The notes under the pieces are model-generated. The model saw only the letters and a list, made by a program, of their open reading frames with translations, was not told the origin of the DNA and did no database searches. 46,204 bases of DNA from an uncultured Flavobacteriaceae bacterium (GTDB lineage: Bacteria > Bacteroidota > Bacteroidia > Flavobacteriales > Flavobacteriaceae). Location: NCBI GenBank assembly GCA_937936275.1, contig CALHCJ010000042.1, positions 1 through 46,204 of the forward strand. The letters are read 5' to 3'. Shown here in pieces: positions 5,047 through 37,258 of this stretch; position 1 is the first letter of the stretch, and each line of letters begins with the position of its first letter. The position numbers and the translations under genes are program-made.

Positions 5047-5219
5047 ATATAACAGTAGAATAAAATTTCCTTTAATTTTATTAGAAAGCATGATTTTTGG
5101 TGCTTTTTTTCCACAATTCATAAGAAATTACCTTTTCGACTACTATTTGTTGATTTTTTTCTCAAATCTGAGCACTTCCAGACAGCACTATTGTCGAATA
5201 TCTTATAGTTAAATAACAA

Positions 5220-5239
5220 TACCCTCAAATTTTTAGGGT
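5220..5239. promoter_or_regulatory. Palindromic operator candidate TACCCT-CAAATTTTT-AGGGT upstream of PII-amtB
   Basis: Inverted repeat with 9-nt spacer, same form and spacing as at 36101-36120. Confidence 0.55.
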
Positions 5240-5308
5240 CTATTTTATCATATATATAAAAATACAGCTTGCACCCTTCAAAAAAGAGGGGTGTTAATTT
5301 TTTTAACA

Positions 5309-5316
5309 TACATTTG
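5309..5316 (+). promoter_or_regulatory. Bacteroidetes -7 box TACATTTG (TAnnTTTG) for PII-amtB
   Basis: Exact match to TAnnTTTG 24 nt before the ATG at 5340. Confidence 0.55.
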
Positions 5317-5339: not shown

Positions 5340-5678
5340 ATGAAACAAATCGAGGCAATTATTAGAAAATCAAAATTCGATGACGTCAAAAAAGCTTTGC
5401 ACACCATCGAGGTTAATTTCTTCAGTTACTGGGACGTAACAGGGGTAGGAAACGAAAAACAAGGACACGTATATCGTGGAATCTCGTATAGCACAACAGA
5501 CATTCAAAGACGCTATTTGTCAATAGTAGTATCTGATGAATTTTTAGAGAAAACGGTAAATACCATACTAGAGTCTGCCTATACCGGCAACGTTGGAGAT
5601 GGTAAAATCTTTGTTTCAGAGGTAAAAGAAGCTTATAGAATACGAACTAAAGAGAGCGGCCAAGCCGGAATCAACTAA
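5340..5678 (+). CDS. glnB: PII family nitrogen regulatory protein
   Basis: MKQIEAIIRKSKFDDVKKAL; T-loop YRGISY; B-loop TGNVGDGKIFV; C-loop RIRTKESG; directly upstream of amtB. Confidence 0.92.
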   Translation: MKQIEAIIRKSKFDDVKKALHTIEVNFFSYWDVTGVGNEKQGHVYRGISYSTTDIQRRYLSIVVSDEFLEKTVNTILESAYTGNVGDGKIFVSEVKEAYRIRTKESGQAGIN

Positions 5679-5706: not shown

Positions 5707-6939
5707 ATGGACGCAGGATTATTTACAGCGAATAACGTATGGATGATGTTGGCTACCGCATTGGTATTCTTCATGCATACAGGTTTTGCTTTCCTTGAAA
5801 TAGGATTAACAAGATCAAAAAATACAATTAACATATTATTCAAAAACATATTTATCATCACAGTAGGCTTACTACTGTATTACGCATGGGGCTTCAATTT
5901 AATGTATCCAGGTTTTGAAGAAGGTTCATCAGGAATTTTCGCTTTCGCCGGATTTGGTATTGATGCTCCTGCAAATGGAATGACTCCAGATTATGCAGAT
6001 GGCGGTTATACCTGGTGGACAGATTTCTTATTTCAAGGAATGTTCGCGGCTACAGCGGCGACTATCGTTTCAGGGGCCGTTGCAGAACGCATGAAAATTG
6101 GCGCCTTTATGATTTTCACAGTTATATACGTAGGGTTAGTATACCCAATCGTAGGTGCTTGGAAATGGGGTGGTGGTTTCTTGGATGCCTGGGGATTCTA
6201 TGATTTCGCGGGTTCTACTTTAGTGCATTCTGTTGGAGGTTGGGCGGCACTTGTTGCTATTGCTCTGCTTGGATCTAGAATTGGAAAATTTGGTGAAGAT
6301 GGAAAACCAAAAGCGATTCCGGGACACAGCATTCCTTTAGCCACGGCAGGTGTATTAATCTTATGGTTAGGATGGTTTGGATTTAACGGAGGCTCTGTTC
6401 TTTCGGCTGATCCAGCTTTAACATCATTAGTTCTTGTTACTACAAGTTTATCTGCTGCTGCAGGTGGTGTTGCTGCTATGATCTTGAGTTTCATTCTTTA
6501 TAAGAATTTAGACCTTACCATGTTCCTAAATGGTATTTTGGGTGGTCTAGTTGGTATAACTGCTGGGGCAGATTTAATGTCTCCTAATGAAGCCGTCATT
6601 ATCGGGCTACTGTCCGGTATCATTATCGTGCTAGGAGTTGCCTTAGTAGATAAATTAAAGTTAGACGATCCGGTTGGTGCCGTTGCAGTCCATTTAATCT
6701 GTGGTATTTGGGGAACACTAGCTGTAGGTATTTTTGGAAGCATGGCCGGGGGTGGTCAATTCATGACCCAGTTATACGGAGTACTCATTATCGGGGCATT
6801 TTGTATAATCACTTCAGGCATCATTATAGGCGCACTCAAAGCTACCGTAGGTATTCGAGTATCGAAAGAAGAAGAAGTAGAAGGTCTTGACCTTCACGAG
6901 CACGGTATGGATGCGTACCCAGATTTTACAAACGATTAA
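5707..6939 (+). CDS. amtB: ammonium transporter
   Basis: FFMHTGFAFLEIGLTRSKN, DFAGSTLVHSVGGWAALV, GWFGFNGGS, DDPVGAVAVHLICGIWGTLAVG. Confidence 0.97.
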   Translation: MDAGLFTANNVWMMLATALVFFMHTGFAFLEIGLTRSKNTINILFKNIFIITVGLLLYYAWGFNLMYPGFEEGSSGIFAFAGFGIDAPANGMTPDYADGGYTWWTDFLFQGMFAATAATIVSGAVAERMKIGAFMIFTVIYVGLVYPIVGAWKWGGGFLDAWGFYDFAGSTLVHSVGGWAALVAIALLGSRIGKFGEDGKPKAIPGHSIPLATAGVLILWLGWFGFNGGSVLSADPALTSLVLVTTSLSAAAGGVAAMILSFILYKNLDLTMFLNGILGGLVGITAGADLMSPNEAVIIGLLSGIIIVLGVALVDKLKLDDPVGAVAVHLICGIWGTLAVGIFGSMAGGGQFMTQLYGVLIIGAFCIITSGIIIGALKATVGIRVSKEEEVEGLDLHEHGMDAYPDFTND

Positions 6940-7053: not shown

Positions 7054-8124
7054 ATGAACATGATTACATTTACAAATTTCGGAAAAAAAATAACGCTAGC
7101 AGCTTTTATGTTTTTAGCAACTATTAGCACATTTGCCCAAGACGAAGAAGAAAGCACCGAACCTAAATTCACACTAAGTGGAAGCGTTGATGCGTATTAC
7201 AGAGCTAATTTAAACTCTGCAAATTCAGGACCTAACTACTCCGCTCCCGGAAGTTCATTTGCAAATTTACCAGGATTTGCTCTCGGTATGGCTAACGTAA
7301 TCGTTGGTTATGAAGGAGAAAAAGTAGGTTTTGTCGCTGATTTGGTTTTCGGTCCTCGAGGAACGGATGCTATTTTTGCCTCTCCTTTATATTCTGCTAC
7401 AGGTAATATTGTAAACCAGTTATATGCTTACTGGAATGTTAGCGAATCGGTTAAGCTTACTTTTGGAAATTTCAACACCTTCTTAGGTTATGAAGTTATT
7501 TCACCTGTAGCCAATTTTAACTACAGTACTTCCTATTTGTTCTCTTATGGTCCATTTTCTCATACTGGTTTAAAAGCTGACTTCGCATTATCAGAAGATT
7601 TTAGTTTGATGCTAGCAGTAATGAATCAAACTGATTTAACGGAATTCAATCCAACAGGACTCTATGCATACGGCGCTCAACTTGGGTATAGTGGTCAATA
7701 CCTTAATTTTTTAGCTGATAACGGTTCATTCGAAGTAGATTTTACGGGTGGCTTTGATCTTTCTGATTCTTTTTTCCTAGGAATAAACGCTGCGTACTTT
7801 AGTGGAGATGAAGAAGATGGTATTGGAGATTTTGCAGGGGTAGCTATTTATCCGCAATTAGCAACATCAGAGAATTTCACCATTGGACTTAGAGGCGAAT
7901 ATTTTGCTGAAACCGATAATTTTGGAGCAATTGGAGCAAACGATGCAAACGGAGATGCTAGTGTTCTAGCTCTAACCTTAACTGGCAGTGCTACCATTGG
8001 AGATTTAATTCTTAAGCCAGAATTTCGTTTAGATAATGCTTCAGAAGATGCCTTTTTAGATTCTGATGGAAACCCCATTGGAAGTCTTTCATCTTTCGTA
8101 CTAGCAGCAGTTTACTCCTTCTAA
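7054..8124 (+). CDS. outer-membrane beta-barrel porin-like protein
   Basis: Signal peptide ending STFAQ; repeated amphipathic strands, terminal ...SSFVLAAVYSF aromatic end; downstream of amtB. Confidence 0.78.
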   Translation: MNMITFTNFGKKITLAAFMFLATISTFAQDEEESTEPKFTLSGSVDAYYRANLNSANSGPNYSAPGSSFANLPGFALGMANVIVGYEGEKVGFVADLVFGPRGTDAIFASPLYSATGNIVNQLYAYWNVSESVKLTFGNFNTFLGYEVISPVANFNYSTSYLFSYGPFSHTGLKADFALSEDFSLMLAVMNQTDLTEFNPTGLYAYGAQLGYSGQYLNFLADNGSFEVDFTGGFDLSDSFFLGINAAYFSGDEEDGIGDFAGVAIYPQLATSENFTIGLRGEYFAETDNFGAIGANDANGDASVLALTLTGSATIGDLILKPEFRLDNASEDAFLDSDGNPIGSLSSFVLAAVYSF

Positions 8125-12064: not shown

Positions 12065-13651
12065 TTAAGACTGTGACTTAATAGCTTTTTTATATTTCAA
12101 TAACTCTTCTTTCACTTTCGATAAAAGTAAAAATAGACCAATCATATTGGGTACTAGCATCGCGAAAATCATAGCATCTGAAAAGAGTGTAACAGAGTCT
12201 AAAGTAGCGGCTGCACCTATAACCACAAAGAGACAGAATATAATTTTATAGACATACTCGGTCTTCTTACCTCTTCCGAAAAGAAATGACCACGCCTGAT
12301 GACCATAATAAGACCACGATATCATTGAAGAAAAAGCAAATAAAATTACTGCAAATGAGAGTAAATACGGAAACCAAGAAATACCACTTCTAAGCGCATT
12401 GGAGGTTAGCACTACCCCTTGTGCATCATTGATTTGAGCTCCTATCACTATCTGACCTGTGATGATTAAAACCAAGGCCGTCATAGTACAAATTACCACA
12501 GTATCGATAAAGGGTTCAAGTAAAGCCACTAAACCTTCGCTAGCTGCATATTTTGTTTTTACTGCAGAATGCGCAATTGAAGCAGAGCCAATGCCAGCTT
12601 CGTTAGAGAAAGCGGCTCTCTTAAAACCTTGAATAAGAACCCCGATAAAACCACCAGCGATTCCTTCGGGTTTGAATGCACCTTCATATATAGCTATGAA
12701 AGCATCTGGGATACTTTGAAAATTGATACCTAATATAGTTAATACCGCTAAGACATATAGTAGTACCATTGCGGGTACAATCTTGTCTGTAACTTTGGCA
12801 ATCTTTTTGATGCCTCCAATAATTACAACTCCAACTAAAATTGACATTATCAAACCAAAAAGCCAACCTTTGCCATGTACAAAACTATGTTCCTCACCCG
12901 TCACATATTCGAAAAGTTGAAAAGCTTGATTTACTTGAAACATATTTCCTCCTCCAAAAGATCCACCAATGCACATCATAGCAAAAACTATGGCTAATAC
13001 CTTCCCAAGTTTTTTTAATCCCTTTTCTTCAAGCCCTTTGGAGAGATAATACATCGGCCCTCCAAAAACCCGTCCATTATCATCAATTTCACGGTATTTT
13101 ACTCCCAAAGTACATTCGACAAACTTTGATGCCATTCCCAAAAAACCAACAAGAATCATCCAAAATGTAGCACCAGCACCTCCAATCGACAATGCGATGG
13201 CAACTCCAGCAATATTACCCAAACCAACCGTTGCAGATAAAGCAGCGGTAAGCGCTTGAAAATGAGTCACCTCACCATCTGTATCTTCTTTTCTAGTGGT
13301 ATCAACGTCTTCTTTTTGTGAAGTGTTTTCCTCAATCATGTTTGAAGATGGCAAGGCTTCTAGGTGATCATATTTTCCTTGAACAATGCGTATAGCAGTT
13401 TTAAAACCTGTGAAGTTTATGCCCCTAAAATAAATAGTAAAAATACTGGCTCCTGTAATCAAAACAATTAATACCCAAGGAACACCAACATCATTCGTAA
13501 TAGGAATTTGCGCAAAAATCGCATCCACAAACCAACCTGTTGCCCTTTCAAATTTTTCATTTATTTGATCATCTAGAGAATATTGTTTTTGTAAAAGATT
13601 TGTGAATAGAAAAAAGATTAAGAACCGAACCATTTTAGTTTTAATCCTCAA
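12065..13651 (-). CDS. sodium:alanine symporter family protein (AGCS)
   Basis: TALSATVGLGNIAGVAIALSIGGAGATFWM; FSNEAGIGSASIAHSAVKT; ISWSYYGHQAWSFLFG. Confidence 0.94.
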   Translation of the reverse strand: MRIKTKMVRFLIFFLFTNLLQKQYSLDDQINEKFERATGWFVDAIFAQIPITNDVGVPWVLIVLITGASIFTIYFRGINFTGFKTAIRIVQGKYDHLEALPSSNMIEENTSQKEDVDTTRKEDTDGEVTHFQALTAALSATVGLGNIAGVAIALSIGGAGATFWMILVGFLGMASKFVECTLGVKYREIDDNGRVFGGPMYYLSKGLEEKGLKKLGKVLAIVFAMMCIGGSFGGGNMFQVNQAFQLFEYVTGEEHSFVHGKGWLFGLIMSILVGVVIIGGIKKIAKVTDKIVPAMVLLYVLAVLTILGINFQSIPDAFIAIYEGAFKPEGIAGGFIGVLIQGFKRAAFSNEAGIGSASIAHSAVKTKYAASEGLVALLEPFIDTVVICTMTALVLIITGQIVIGAQINDAQGVVLTSNALRSGISWFPYLLSFAVILFAFSSMISWSYYGHQAWSFLFGRGKKTEYVYKIIFCLFVVIGAAATLDSVTLFSDAMIFAMLVPNMIGLFLLLSKVKEELLKYKKAIKSQS

Positions 13652-14975: not shown

Positions 14976-15428
14976 TTATGTCATTTCTTTAAGAATAGGA
15001 GCATTTGAAACCACATTCGATAAAATGATGTGGGTTCTTGTCTCGCCATATTGAATAAGCTTGTCAATGAACTTTTCTAAATGAAACTGATCTTTTAAAA
15101 CAACCTCCATAATAATATTCTCATTCCCAGTAATACGATAGCAATTTATTACTTCTTTGAAGGTGACTACGGTCACTAAAAAAGGTTTGAGTTTTCCCAT
15201 AAAAGCGCGCAGGGTAATTATTGCTTTCAGCTGATGCCCTGTCTTGGCATGTGATACTTTTGCAGTGTACCCTTGAATAATTTCCATATCTTCCATTTTC
15301 TTGATACGCTCTGCAACGGCAGGGGGTGTCAACCCGACTTGCCTACCAATTTCAGCGAAGGAAGCGCGTGCATTTTCTTGAAGACTATTCAGTATCTTCC
15401 AATTCAACATATCGATCTTATCATTCAT
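14976..15428 (-). CDS. Lrp/AsnC family transcriptional regulator
   Basis: Start at MNDKIDMLNWKILNSLQENARASFAEIGRQVGLTPPAVAERIKKMEDMEIIQGY. Confidence 0.93.
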   Translation of the reverse strand: MNDKIDMLNWKILNSLQENARASFAEIGRQVGLTPPAVAERIKKMEDMEIIQGYTAKVSHAKTGHQLKAIITLRAFMGKLKPFLVTVVTFKEVINCYRITGNENIIMEVVLKDQFHLEKFIDKLIQYGETRTHIILSNVVSNAPILKEMT

Positions 15429-33836: not shown

Positions 33837-36023
33837 TTACTTTATAAACAAAAGTTCTCTATATTTTGTTAATGGCCAAACTTGATCATCGATCAATTGC
33901 TCTAGCTTATCACTTTCATAGCGTATCTCATCAAAATGAGGCTTGATATTTTCAGCATAAGCCAACGCTTTTTTAAGACTATCCGTTAACTGGTTTGCCT
34001 TTTTTCTTGCGTCGGTCATTGCATCTGTTTTAGCTTTTAACACAACAATATGTTCTGCTATTTTCTCAATAATGTTTGATTGCCCCTCTGTTAATTTTTT
34101 GTGGGCTGCCCCATAAATATCTTTTAGCCCTAAAACATTTTTAATGAGTTTATTTTGATATGTTATTGCCGCTGGAATTATATAACTGTAAACAAGTTCA
34201 TTGAAAACACGTCCTTCAATTTGAAGATGTAAAATATAAGCTTCAAGCTCAACTTCTTGTCGTGCATTTACCTCAATCTCACTCATCACTTTCATCGATT
34301 TGAACAAGTCAATGGTATCAGGTGAAGTCAACACTTTTAAGGCCTCTGGGGTAATTTTGTTATTGCTAAGCTTCCGTTTCTTGGCTTCTTTTTCCCAGGC
34401 TTCACTATAACCGTCGCCATCAAATCGAATTCGTTTTGAAGTTTTAATATACTCACGAAGCACATTAAAAATAGCCTCATCTTTCTTCAAACTCTTCTTA
34501 TCAACTAACGCATCAACCTCTTTCTTAAAAGCTCGTAATTGCTTTGCGACAATGGTGTTCAAAATAGTCATCGGTTTAGCACAATTGGCCTGTGAACCGA
34601 CACCTCGCATTTCAAATTTATTGCCAGTAAAGGCGAAAGGTGAAGTTCGGTTGCGATCAGTATTATCCATTAAAATTTCAGGAATTTTACCAACAACATT
34701 TAATTTGAGTTCGGTTTTTTCTTCTGGGGATAATTTTCCTTTAGAAACTCCTTCCAACTCATCTAAAACCCGACTGAGCTGTGTACCAATAAAAATGGAC
34801 AGAATTGCCGGCGGAGCTTCATTAGCCCCTAAACGATGATCGTTTCCTGCGGAAGCAATCGATGATCGCAGTAACTCTTCGTAAGTGTCTACTGCTTTTA
34901 TGGTGTTGATAAAAAAGGTTAAGAATTGTAAGTTCTTCATCGGGGTAGAACCCGGACTCAATAAATTCACTCCCGTATCGGTTGCCAAAGACCAATTGTT
35001 GTGTTTCCCCGAACCGTTGATACCCGCAAAAGGTTTTTCATGAAATAACACTTTAAAGCTGTGTTTATCTGCAATTTTATCCATCACATCCATTAAAAGG
35101 AGGTTGTGATCTACCGCAAGATTTGCTTCTTCAAACACGGGAGCCAATTCAAACTGATTGGGCGCTACTTCGTTGTGTCTTGTCTTTACAGGAATACCGA
35201 GTTTCGTACATTCCTTTTCTAAATCGCTCATAAAGCTCAACACCCTACCTGGAATAACGCCAAAATAATGATCATCTAGCTGTTGGCCTTTTGCTGCAGA
35301 ATGCCCTACCAAAGTACGACCTGTAAGACTTATGTCAGGTCTTGAATTGGCCAAAGCCTTATCTATTAAAAAATACTCCTGCTCCCAGCCTAGAGTAGCG
35401 TTAACCTTAGATACGTTTTTATCAAAATATTTTGCCACTGCCGTAGCTGCTTCATCCATTGCGTGCAAGGCTCTTAACAAGGGCGCTTTATTATCTAAAG
35501 CCTCTCCAGTGTAGGAGACGAAAATTGTTGGAATACACAGGGTCGTTTCGTAAATAAAAGCAGGCGAGGTTGGATCCCAAGCAGTATACCCTCTTGCTTC
35601 GAAAGTATTTCGAATTCCTCCACTCGGAAAACTAGAGGCATCGGGTTCTTGTTGTACTAATTGCCCACCACCAAACTTCTCCAAACCGCGACCATTAGGT
35701 AGTAAGTCAAAAAATGCATCATGCTTTTCAGCCGTAGCACCTGTCAAGGGTTGAAACCAATGTGTGTAATGTGTAGCCCCCATCGAAATCGCCCAGCCCT
35801 TCATGGCCTCCGCAACTTGATCTGCAATCTTACGATCAATTTTAGACCCAGAGACTATTGCACTTTGAACACTTTGTAGCGCATCTTTCGTAAAATATTG
35901 AAGCATTCGCTCTTCATTAAAAACATTTTGAGCAAAGAGCTCAGAGCGTCTTCCTTTTTCTTCAATAGTAATTCGATTTCTGTTTTGACTCTCAGTAATG
36001 GCTTTAAATCTTGCTTTAGACAT
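33837..36023 (-). CDS. glnN: glutamine synthetase type III
   Basis: Start at MSKARFKAITESQNR; HWFQPLTGATAEKHD; WEQEYFLID; TRHNEVAPNQFELAPVFEEANLAVDHN; GSGKHNNWSL; NDHRLGANEAPPAI. Confidence 0.96.
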   Translation of the reverse strand: MSKARFKAITESQNRNRITIEEKGRRSELFAQNVFNEERMLQYFTKDALQSVQSAIVSGSKIDRKIADQVAEAMKGWAISMGATHYTHWFQPLTGATAEKHDAFFDLLPNGRGLEKFGGGQLVQQEPDASSFPSGGIRNTFEARGYTAWDPTSPAFIYETTLCIPTIFVSYTGEALDNKAPLLRALHAMDEAATAVAKYFDKNVSKVNATLGWEQEYFLIDKALANSRPDISLTGRTLVGHSAAKGQQLDDHYFGVIPGRVLSFMSDLEKECTKLGIPVKTRHNEVAPNQFELAPVFEEANLAVDHNLLLMDVMDKIADKHSFKVLFHEKPFAGINGSGKHNNWSLATDTGVNLLSPGSTPMKNLQFLTFFINTIKAVDTYEELLRSSIASAGNDHRLGANEAPPAILSIFIGTQLSRVLDELEGVSKGKLSPEEKTELKLNVVGKIPEILMDNTDRNRTSPFAFTGNKFEMRGVGSQANCAKPMTILNTIVAKQLRAFKKEVDALVDKKSLKKDEAIFNVLREYIKTSKRIRFDGDGYSEAWEKEAKKRKLSNNKITPEALKVLTSPDTIDLFKSMKVMSEIEVNARQEVELEAYILHLQIEGRVFNELVYSYIIPAAITYQNKLIKNVLGLKDIYGAAHKKLTEGQSNIIEKIAEHIVVLKAKTDAMTDARKKANQLTDSLKKALAYAENIKPHFDEIRYESDKLEQLIDDQVWPLTKYRELLFIK

Positions 36024-36100
36024 AATCATTTGTTCTTGACGACTAAGCAGCCGTTGATAATATGACAAAATTACTATCAAATAATAGATATTTCACAATT

Positions 36101-36120
36101 TACCCTACAAAAATTAGGGT
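36101..36120. promoter_or_regulatory. Palindromic operator candidate TACCCT-ACAAAAATT-AGGGT in the divergent GSIII/GSII promoter region
   Basis: Perfect inverted repeat (TTACCCTA/TAGGGTAA, 36100-36122); same ACCCT-N9-AGGGT as at 5221-5239. Confidence 0.6.
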
Positions 36121-36188
36121 AATATGAAAAAGGAATAACTTTTAACAAATATACCCCCTCAAAAATTATGATAATTCATCAAAAAACA

Positions 36189-36196
36189 TATTTTTG
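36189..36196 (+). promoter_or_regulatory. Bacteroidetes -7 box TATTTTTG (TAnnTTTG) for GSII
   Basis: Exact TAnnTTTG match 40 nt before the ATG at 36236. Confidence 0.5.
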
Positions 36197-36235
36197 TTTG
36201 TCTTTTTATTATCGTTAACGTAACTATTGAAAATT

Positions 36236-37258
36236 ATGAGTAAGATTAAATTAGAATACATTTGGCTAGATGGATACTTCCCGACACAAAATTTGAGAAG
36301 TAAAACTAAAGTTGAAGAGCACGAAAATTTTAAAGGAACACTAGAGGAATTAGACAACTGGTCTTTTGATGGGTCTTCAACACGACAAGCAGAAGGTGGT
36401 TCGTCTGACTGCTTGCTTGTACCTGTTGCTATCTATCCTGATCCTTCTCGCATCAATGGTTATTTGGTTATGACTGAGGTAATGAATGCTGACGGAACGC
36501 CTCACGTATCTAATGGTAGAGCCACTATTGATGATGACGATAACGATTTTTGGTTCGGCTTTGAGCAAGAATATTTTATCATGGATACCAAAACGCAGCT
36601 GCCCTTAGGTTTCCCTATCGGAGGATATCCTGCTCCACAAGGAATGTACTATTGCTCCGTTGGTGGGAAAAACACGCACGGAAGAGAACTAGTTGAAGAG
36701 CATGCAGATTTATGTATTGAAGCTGGCCTAAATTTTGAAGGTATCAACCAAGAAGTTGCATCTGGTCAATGGGAGTTTCAATTGTTTGCCAAAGGTGCTA
36801 AAAAAGCCGGAGATGAAATCTGGATTGCTAGATACTTACTAGATCGTTTGACAGAAAAATATGGTTACTACATTGAGTATCATCCAAAGCCTCTTGGTAA
36901 AGATATGGACTGGAATGGTTCAGGGATGCACGCTAATTTCTCTAACGAGATACTAAGAACATGTGGAGATAAAGAGGTTTACGCAAAAATATGCGAAGCT
37001 TTCCGACCTGTAGTTAAAGAACATATTGAAGTTTATGGTGAATTTAATGATCAACGTTTAACGGGAGATCACGAAACAGCAGCGATTACTGATTTCTCTT
37101 GGGGAGTTTCAGATAGAGGTGCTTCAATACGCATTCCAATTATTGCGGTTGAGAAAGGTTGGAAAGGTTGGTTAGAAGATCGTAGACCTGCTTCTAACGG
37201 TGACCCATACAAAATTGCAGCCAGAATTATTAAGACCGTTAAAACGGCTAAAGTATAA
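36236..37258 (+). CDS. glutamine synthetase, eukaryote-like type II
   Basis: IWLDGYFPTQNLRSKTK; NWSFDGSSTRQAEGGSSDCLLVPVAIYPDP; FGFEQEYFIMD; QWEFQLF; NGSGMHANFS; DRGASIRIP. Confidence 0.95.
   Translation: MSKIKLEYIWLDGYFPTQNLRSKTKVEEHENFKGTLEELDNWSFDGSSTRQAEGGSSDCLLVPVAIYPDPSRINGYLVMTEVMNADGTPHVSNGRATIDDDDNDFWFGFEQEYFIMDTKTQLPLGFPIGGYPAPQGMYYCSVGGKNTHGRELVEEHADLCIEAGLNFEGINQEVASGQWEFQLFAKGAKKAGDEIWIARYLLDRLTEKYGYYIEYHPKPLGKDMDWNGSGMHANFSNEILRTCGDKEVYAKICEAFRPVVKEHIEVYGEFNDQRLTGDHETAAITDFSWGVSDRGASIRIPIIAVEKGWKGWLEDRRPASNGDPYKIAARIIKTVKTAKV

Follow-up and report, generated by a model that had tools for sequence, protein, structure and literature searches.

Paired palindromes upstream of ammonium assimilation genes point to a conserved nitrogen regulon in flavobacteria and some more distant Bacteroidota

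Several described regulatory systems share part of the promoter layout reported here. In the NtcA regulon of cyanobacteria, one factor serves the glutamine synthetase, amt, and PII genes from sites whose distance to a sigma-70 type −10 box is constant. In Bacilli, the GlnR/TnrA regulon includes glutamine synthetase as well as the uptake of ammonium and works from palindromes close to the promoter, of which there are often several, and NtrC with sigma-54 exerts global control over glnA, glnK-amtB, and gltBD through GC-bearing palindromes with an AT-rich center. The closest geometry is that of the Escherichia coli tandem CRP promoters (class II plus class I/III), where two sites at a distance of 52 bp share one face of the DNA upstream of a sigma-70 promoter and flank an AT tract. 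Within the same phylum as the genome studied here, amtB, glnK, glnN, and gltBD of Prevotella ruminicola change strongly and together with ammonium (PMC5552732); that study gives both directions of the response in different sections of its text, and it describes no regulator, promoter, or motif. In the open-access literature searched, neither a regulator nor a site for nitrogen control was named for Bacteroidota, an absence that is not proof of novelty. As far as this literature shows, transcriptional control of nitrogen assimilation is undescribed in Bacteroidota, a group important in oceans, soil, and the gut.

Paired operators in the window

The window, a 46,204-nucleotide stretch of DNA from an uncultured Flavobacteriaceae bacterium, contains divergent genes for type III and type II glutamine synthetases (GSIII and GSII), separated by a 206-bp gap with the palindrome TTACCCTACAAAAATTAGGGTAA, and a PII-amtB locus preceded by operators of the same kind (Table 1). 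A preliminary description had placed the GSII palindrome 78 bp before a −7 box, and both this distance and the position of its center were reproduced from the sequence. The geometry given for PII-amtB was recovered as well, with 79 bp from distal center to box, 52 bp between centers, and 27 bp from proximal center to box. The second GSII operator is present as described, with its center at 36163 rather than 36164 and spacings of 52 and 26 bp rather than 53 and 25 bp; overall, the earlier positions were correct to within 1 base.

Table 1. Operators, promoter elements, and genes of the window
Feature	Coordinates	Strand	Remarks
Distal PII-amtB operator	5219 to 5241 (center 5230)	.	
Proximal PII-amtB operator	5271 to 5293 (center 5282)	.	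Right half occupies place expected for −33 element
TACATTTG, −7 box of PII-amtB	5309 to 5316	+	
PII signaling protein gene	5340 to 5678	+	
Ammonium transporter gene	5707 to 6939	+	
BBP2-type porin gene	7054 to 8124	+	Behind amtB in the window
AgcS-type amino acid carrier gene	12065 to 13633	−	
Lrp/AsnC regulator gene	14976 to 15428	−	Near AgcS-type carrier gene
GSIII gene	33837 to 36029	−	Start 36029 or 36023
TAATTTTG, probable GSIII −7 box	36066 to 36073	−	38 bp from center of shared operator
Distal operator TTACCCTACAAAAATTAGGGTAA	36100 to 36122 (center 36111)	.	Common to divergent GSII and GSIII promoters; kept in most of 80 relatives
Proximal GSII operator	36153 to 36172 (center ~36163)	.	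Left half ACCCC kept, right half degenerate; overlaps GSII −33 position
TATTTTTG, sigma-A type −7 box of GSII	36189 to 36196	+	Type from TAnnTTTG of a flavobacterium (PMC9723704)
GSII gene (GlnII family)	36236 to 37258	+	NCBIfam GlnII score below curated cutoff

The 3.38-Mb assembly to which the window belongs (85% complete) contains two perfect copies of ACCCT-N9-AGGGT, only at the GSII/GSIII and PII-amtB promoters; a reversed control pattern occurs once. Relaxing the pattern to ACCCY/RGGGT adds two sites, one within a coding frame and one in the promoter of gltB (contig C75). The two promoters of the window had been called unlinked, a description that did not hold: 31 kb separates them on a single contig, and in relatives of the same genus both are usually found on one contig, about 20 to 30 kb apart.

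Conservation and targets in relatives

To compare promoters, we used 80 GSII genes, the nearest ones among public genomes (Kriegella, Cellulophaga, Algibacter, Winogradskyella, Polaribacter, Flavobacterium, Kordia, Formosa, and others) and the PII-amtB promoters of 21 relatives. The layout of the window recurs upstream of most of these GSII genes and at 21 PII-amtB promoters, with the consensus ACCCC-N9-GGGGT around an AT-rich center (about 16.8 bits), in which the information in the C and G triplets is well above that in flanking columns. Across 85 promoters, operator spacing is 51 to 55 bp, with a mode of 53 bp (50/85), and the center of the nearer operator is 23 to 28 bp before the TAnnTTTG −7 box. 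The simple perfect pattern showed no enrichment across 60 relatives, because the consensus is instead ACCCC/GGGGT, with variation from genome to genome, and a two-site model was needed.

As a held-out test, a matrix built solely from PII promoters was applied to the 80 GSII promoters at a threshold of 12 bits. It exceeded this value in 62 of them, compared to 0.35 in dinucleotide shuffles and 1 of 365 control windows, and the two best sites were 51 to 55 bp apart in 67 of the 80 promoters, compared to 3.6 in shuffles. PII promoters retain both halves of both operators. In glutamine synthetase promoters, the proximal operator has a conserved left half and a drifting right half, so the half-site partner that had been counted as a weakness of the GSII locus is the rule for these promoters as a class.

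A whole-promoter model built from the sequences of 20 PII and GSII promoters was then used to scan the source genome, 60 relatives, and 296 genomes drawn from the class. In the source genome, the two loci of the window scored 60.3 and 48.1 bits, and the next-best place scored 17.9 bits. All 51 strong matches that were checked, from at least 37 genomes, lie directly upstream of nitrogen assimilation genes: GSII, GSIII, PII-amtB, a porin gene divergent from gltB, another amtB, or the alanine dehydrogenase gene (ald). Many matches at GSII and PII are closely related to sequences used for training, and at least 13 of the 51 are in gene contexts from which no training sequence came (porin/gltB, ald, GSIII alone, or another amtB). 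The preliminary argument that chance does not explain the agreement of nitrogen promoters in sequence and geometry is thus borne out by the held-out test and by the checked matches, and the same two results are the reason that the operator pair points to a conserved nitrogen assimilation regulon in flavobacteria and some more distant Bacteroidota. On this evidence the BBP2 porin is a predicted member of the regulon, possibly as an outer membrane channel for ammonium or small nitrogen compounds.

The class-wide scan returned matches in seven genomes, all seven at nitrogen genes: the source genome, three other members of its family, and three genomes from three other families of the class (G193, G267, and G293), where the match precedes GSIII. 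A weak match in family f7 likewise precedes an ammonium transporter gene. A PII query found few homologs in the rest of the class, and most of these are too distant for the site to be present, so depth of conservation cannot be read from PII promoters and is seen instead at GSIII. Tentatively, much of the class Bacteroidia may have a common, undescribed master regulator of nitrogen assimilation, with a site unrelated to those of NtrC, NtcA, or GlnR, that would activate GSII, GSIII, PII-amtB, gltB, and ald via two phased operators and would predate the split between flavobacteria and the other families; this is a proposal about as easy to doubt as to hold.

Gene order and operator content differ in places. 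A BBP2 porin homolog is the first gene after the operators, divergent from gltB, in other genera (L220, L270, L318, L319, and L339). In G028 (L313-L314) and G031 (L318), a second ammonium transporter gene, whose product has an apparently longer N terminus, lies between the porin gene and PII-amtB with the same operators upstream. No strong motif was found in family members G016, G018, G022, G026, G030, G034, and G036, despite its presence in related species. The GSII promoters of Winogradskyella wandonensis (L118) and Wenyingzhuangia marina (L098) have no operators, and related species have them; these natural losses should be useful for finding the regulator.

Promoter architecture and modes of control

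In Flavobacterium psychrophilum, TAnnTTTG is the −7 box of sigma-A promoters, at −12 to −5 (PMC9723704). Placing the box there puts the operator centers near −37.5 and −90.5, and the 53-bp spacing, about five helical turns, puts both on one face of the DNA. A TTTG or nTTG element at the correct −33 spacing is found in none of the 21 PII promoters, because the operator half-site GGG occupies that place. A TTTG −33 element is present in 17 of 64 glutamine synthetase promoters; the right half-site is lost in those, and their −7 box, among those listed, is mostly weaker. There is an apparent trade-off between a −33 element and a right proximal half-site combined with a strong −7 box, and the promoter reads as activator dependent. 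GSII promoters of Polaribacter and Winogradskyella (e.g., L068, L087, L058, and L062) have TTTG at −33 in place of the right proximal half and a −7 box that has drifted to CATTTTTG or AATATTTG.

We consider it probable that one dimeric transcription factor, acting from both operators, activates GSII, GSIII, PII-amtB with its porin gene, gltB, and ald under nitrogen scarcity. The factor would bind both ACCCC-N9-GGGGT sites of each promoter; at the proximal site it would replace the missing −33 element and contact RNA polymerase, and the distal operator of GSII would also serve the GSIII promoter. The signal would be nitrogen status, with the genes turned on when nitrogen is scarce. In relatives, the shared operator and the GSIII −7 box are separated by 35 to 39, 46 to 48, 53 to 59, or 98 to 104 bp, distances that roughly follow helical steps (P values of 0.07 and 0.02, with these treated as four or five independent distances), so that helical phasing of the GSIII boxes is only suggestive.

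Nearly all PII promoters have a TAAAAAT tract between the operators, about 25 to 32 bp past the distal center (~5255 to 5265 in the window), and a similar tract in glutamine synthetase promoters is about one helical turn closer to the distal operator. The tract between the PII operators could be a site for the alpha subunit of RNA polymerase.

The same operators might instead bind a repressor active in ammonium or glutamine excess, which would cover the −33 position and be stabilized by distal pairing over a 53-bp loop. Such a protein would suit the overlap of the proximal operator with −33 and the use of two phased operators, which is typical of cooperative repressors, and GlnR of Bacilli is a repressor that acts in this manner. 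However, PII promoters have no usable −33 element, and therefore the promoter should be weak when unaided; the roughly helical phasing of GSIII boxes up to 100 bp from the operator also argues against repression, which we regard as unlikely.

Candidate regulators and comparison with known systems

A fixed DNA element before a whole pathway provides bait for its regulator and a basis for a reporter, and the regulator should be broadly conserved in the class because its sites are. The Lrp/AsnC protein of the window was one candidate. Its gene is situated between the two promoters and, in several genera, stays 17 to 24 kb from the GSIII promoter while other neighbors change. Proteins of this family regulate gltBDF in E. 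coli (PMC1784095), and glutamine is a signal for Sa-Lrp (PMC3584215). In the first 60 genomes the candidate looked promising: among 37 family genomes, 26 had both Lrp and the motif, 1 had Lrp only, 4 had the motif only, and 6 had neither (Fisher P value of 0.0006). An independent set of named genomes contradicted it: 8 of 21 motif-bearing genomes (four Flavobacterium, Formosa, two Polaribacter, and one Kordia) have no close Lrp homolog, and the protein is therefore rejected as the general regulator. G024 and G028 also have no homolog, W. wandonensis and G026 have Lrp and no motif, and no operator lies upstream of the Lrp/AsnC gene itself. That this protein is the regulator is now very improbable, and the initial association probably reflects shared ancestry.

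A second Lrp gene occurs near ald in the same genus (L217, L218, and L227), and Lrp family members of about that score are seemingly common in motif-bearing and motif-free genomes alike. No transcription factor gene adjoining the glutamine synthetase genes is conserved in the 80 loci, except for a BlaI-type gene next to a neighboring exchanger gene, judged an unlikely candidate. In a search for an autoregulated factor, a relaxed single-site pattern applied to the genus recovered gltB and no transcription factor promoter; most of the remaining matches fall within coding frames or have no likely target nearby.

The G+C stem with its AT loop resembles a short terminator, but that the palindromes are RNA hairpins, terminators, or assembly artifacts can be dismissed almost entirely. 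They precede the −7 box of each divergent gene and are thus transcribed from neither promoter, their spacing from the promoter is as constant in isolates as in metagenome-assembled genomes, and the palindromes have no Rfam match here.

A single dimeric activator at paired operators would differ from each of the known systems. NtrC needs a −24/−12 promoter, whereas a TAnnTTTG box stands at a fixed distance here, and the interval from 36100 to 36236 has no GG-N10-GC promoter and no GC dinucleotide at all for a −12 element. The GlnR/TnrA consensus TGTNA-N7-TNACA is absent from the same interval, and whereas glnR is linked to glnA, no linked regulator gene is found here. The NtcA site, GTA-N8-TAC near −41.5, is likewise absent from this interval; the site here is ACCCC-N9-GGGGT near −37.5, with a second site 53 bp upstream that looks obligatory, unlike in NtcA promoters. 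The TGTGA half-sites of CRP have a separation of about 11 bp, compared to about 14 bp here, a spacing that does not favor CRP/FNR proteins, and the proximal center is about 4 bp nearer the box, near −37.5 (if the box begins at −12) compared to −41.5 for CRP/FNR sites. As with CRP/FNR-type promoters, the second site lies an integral number of helical turns upstream, and as in nitrogen control regulons generally, one site stands before several ammonium assimilation operons.
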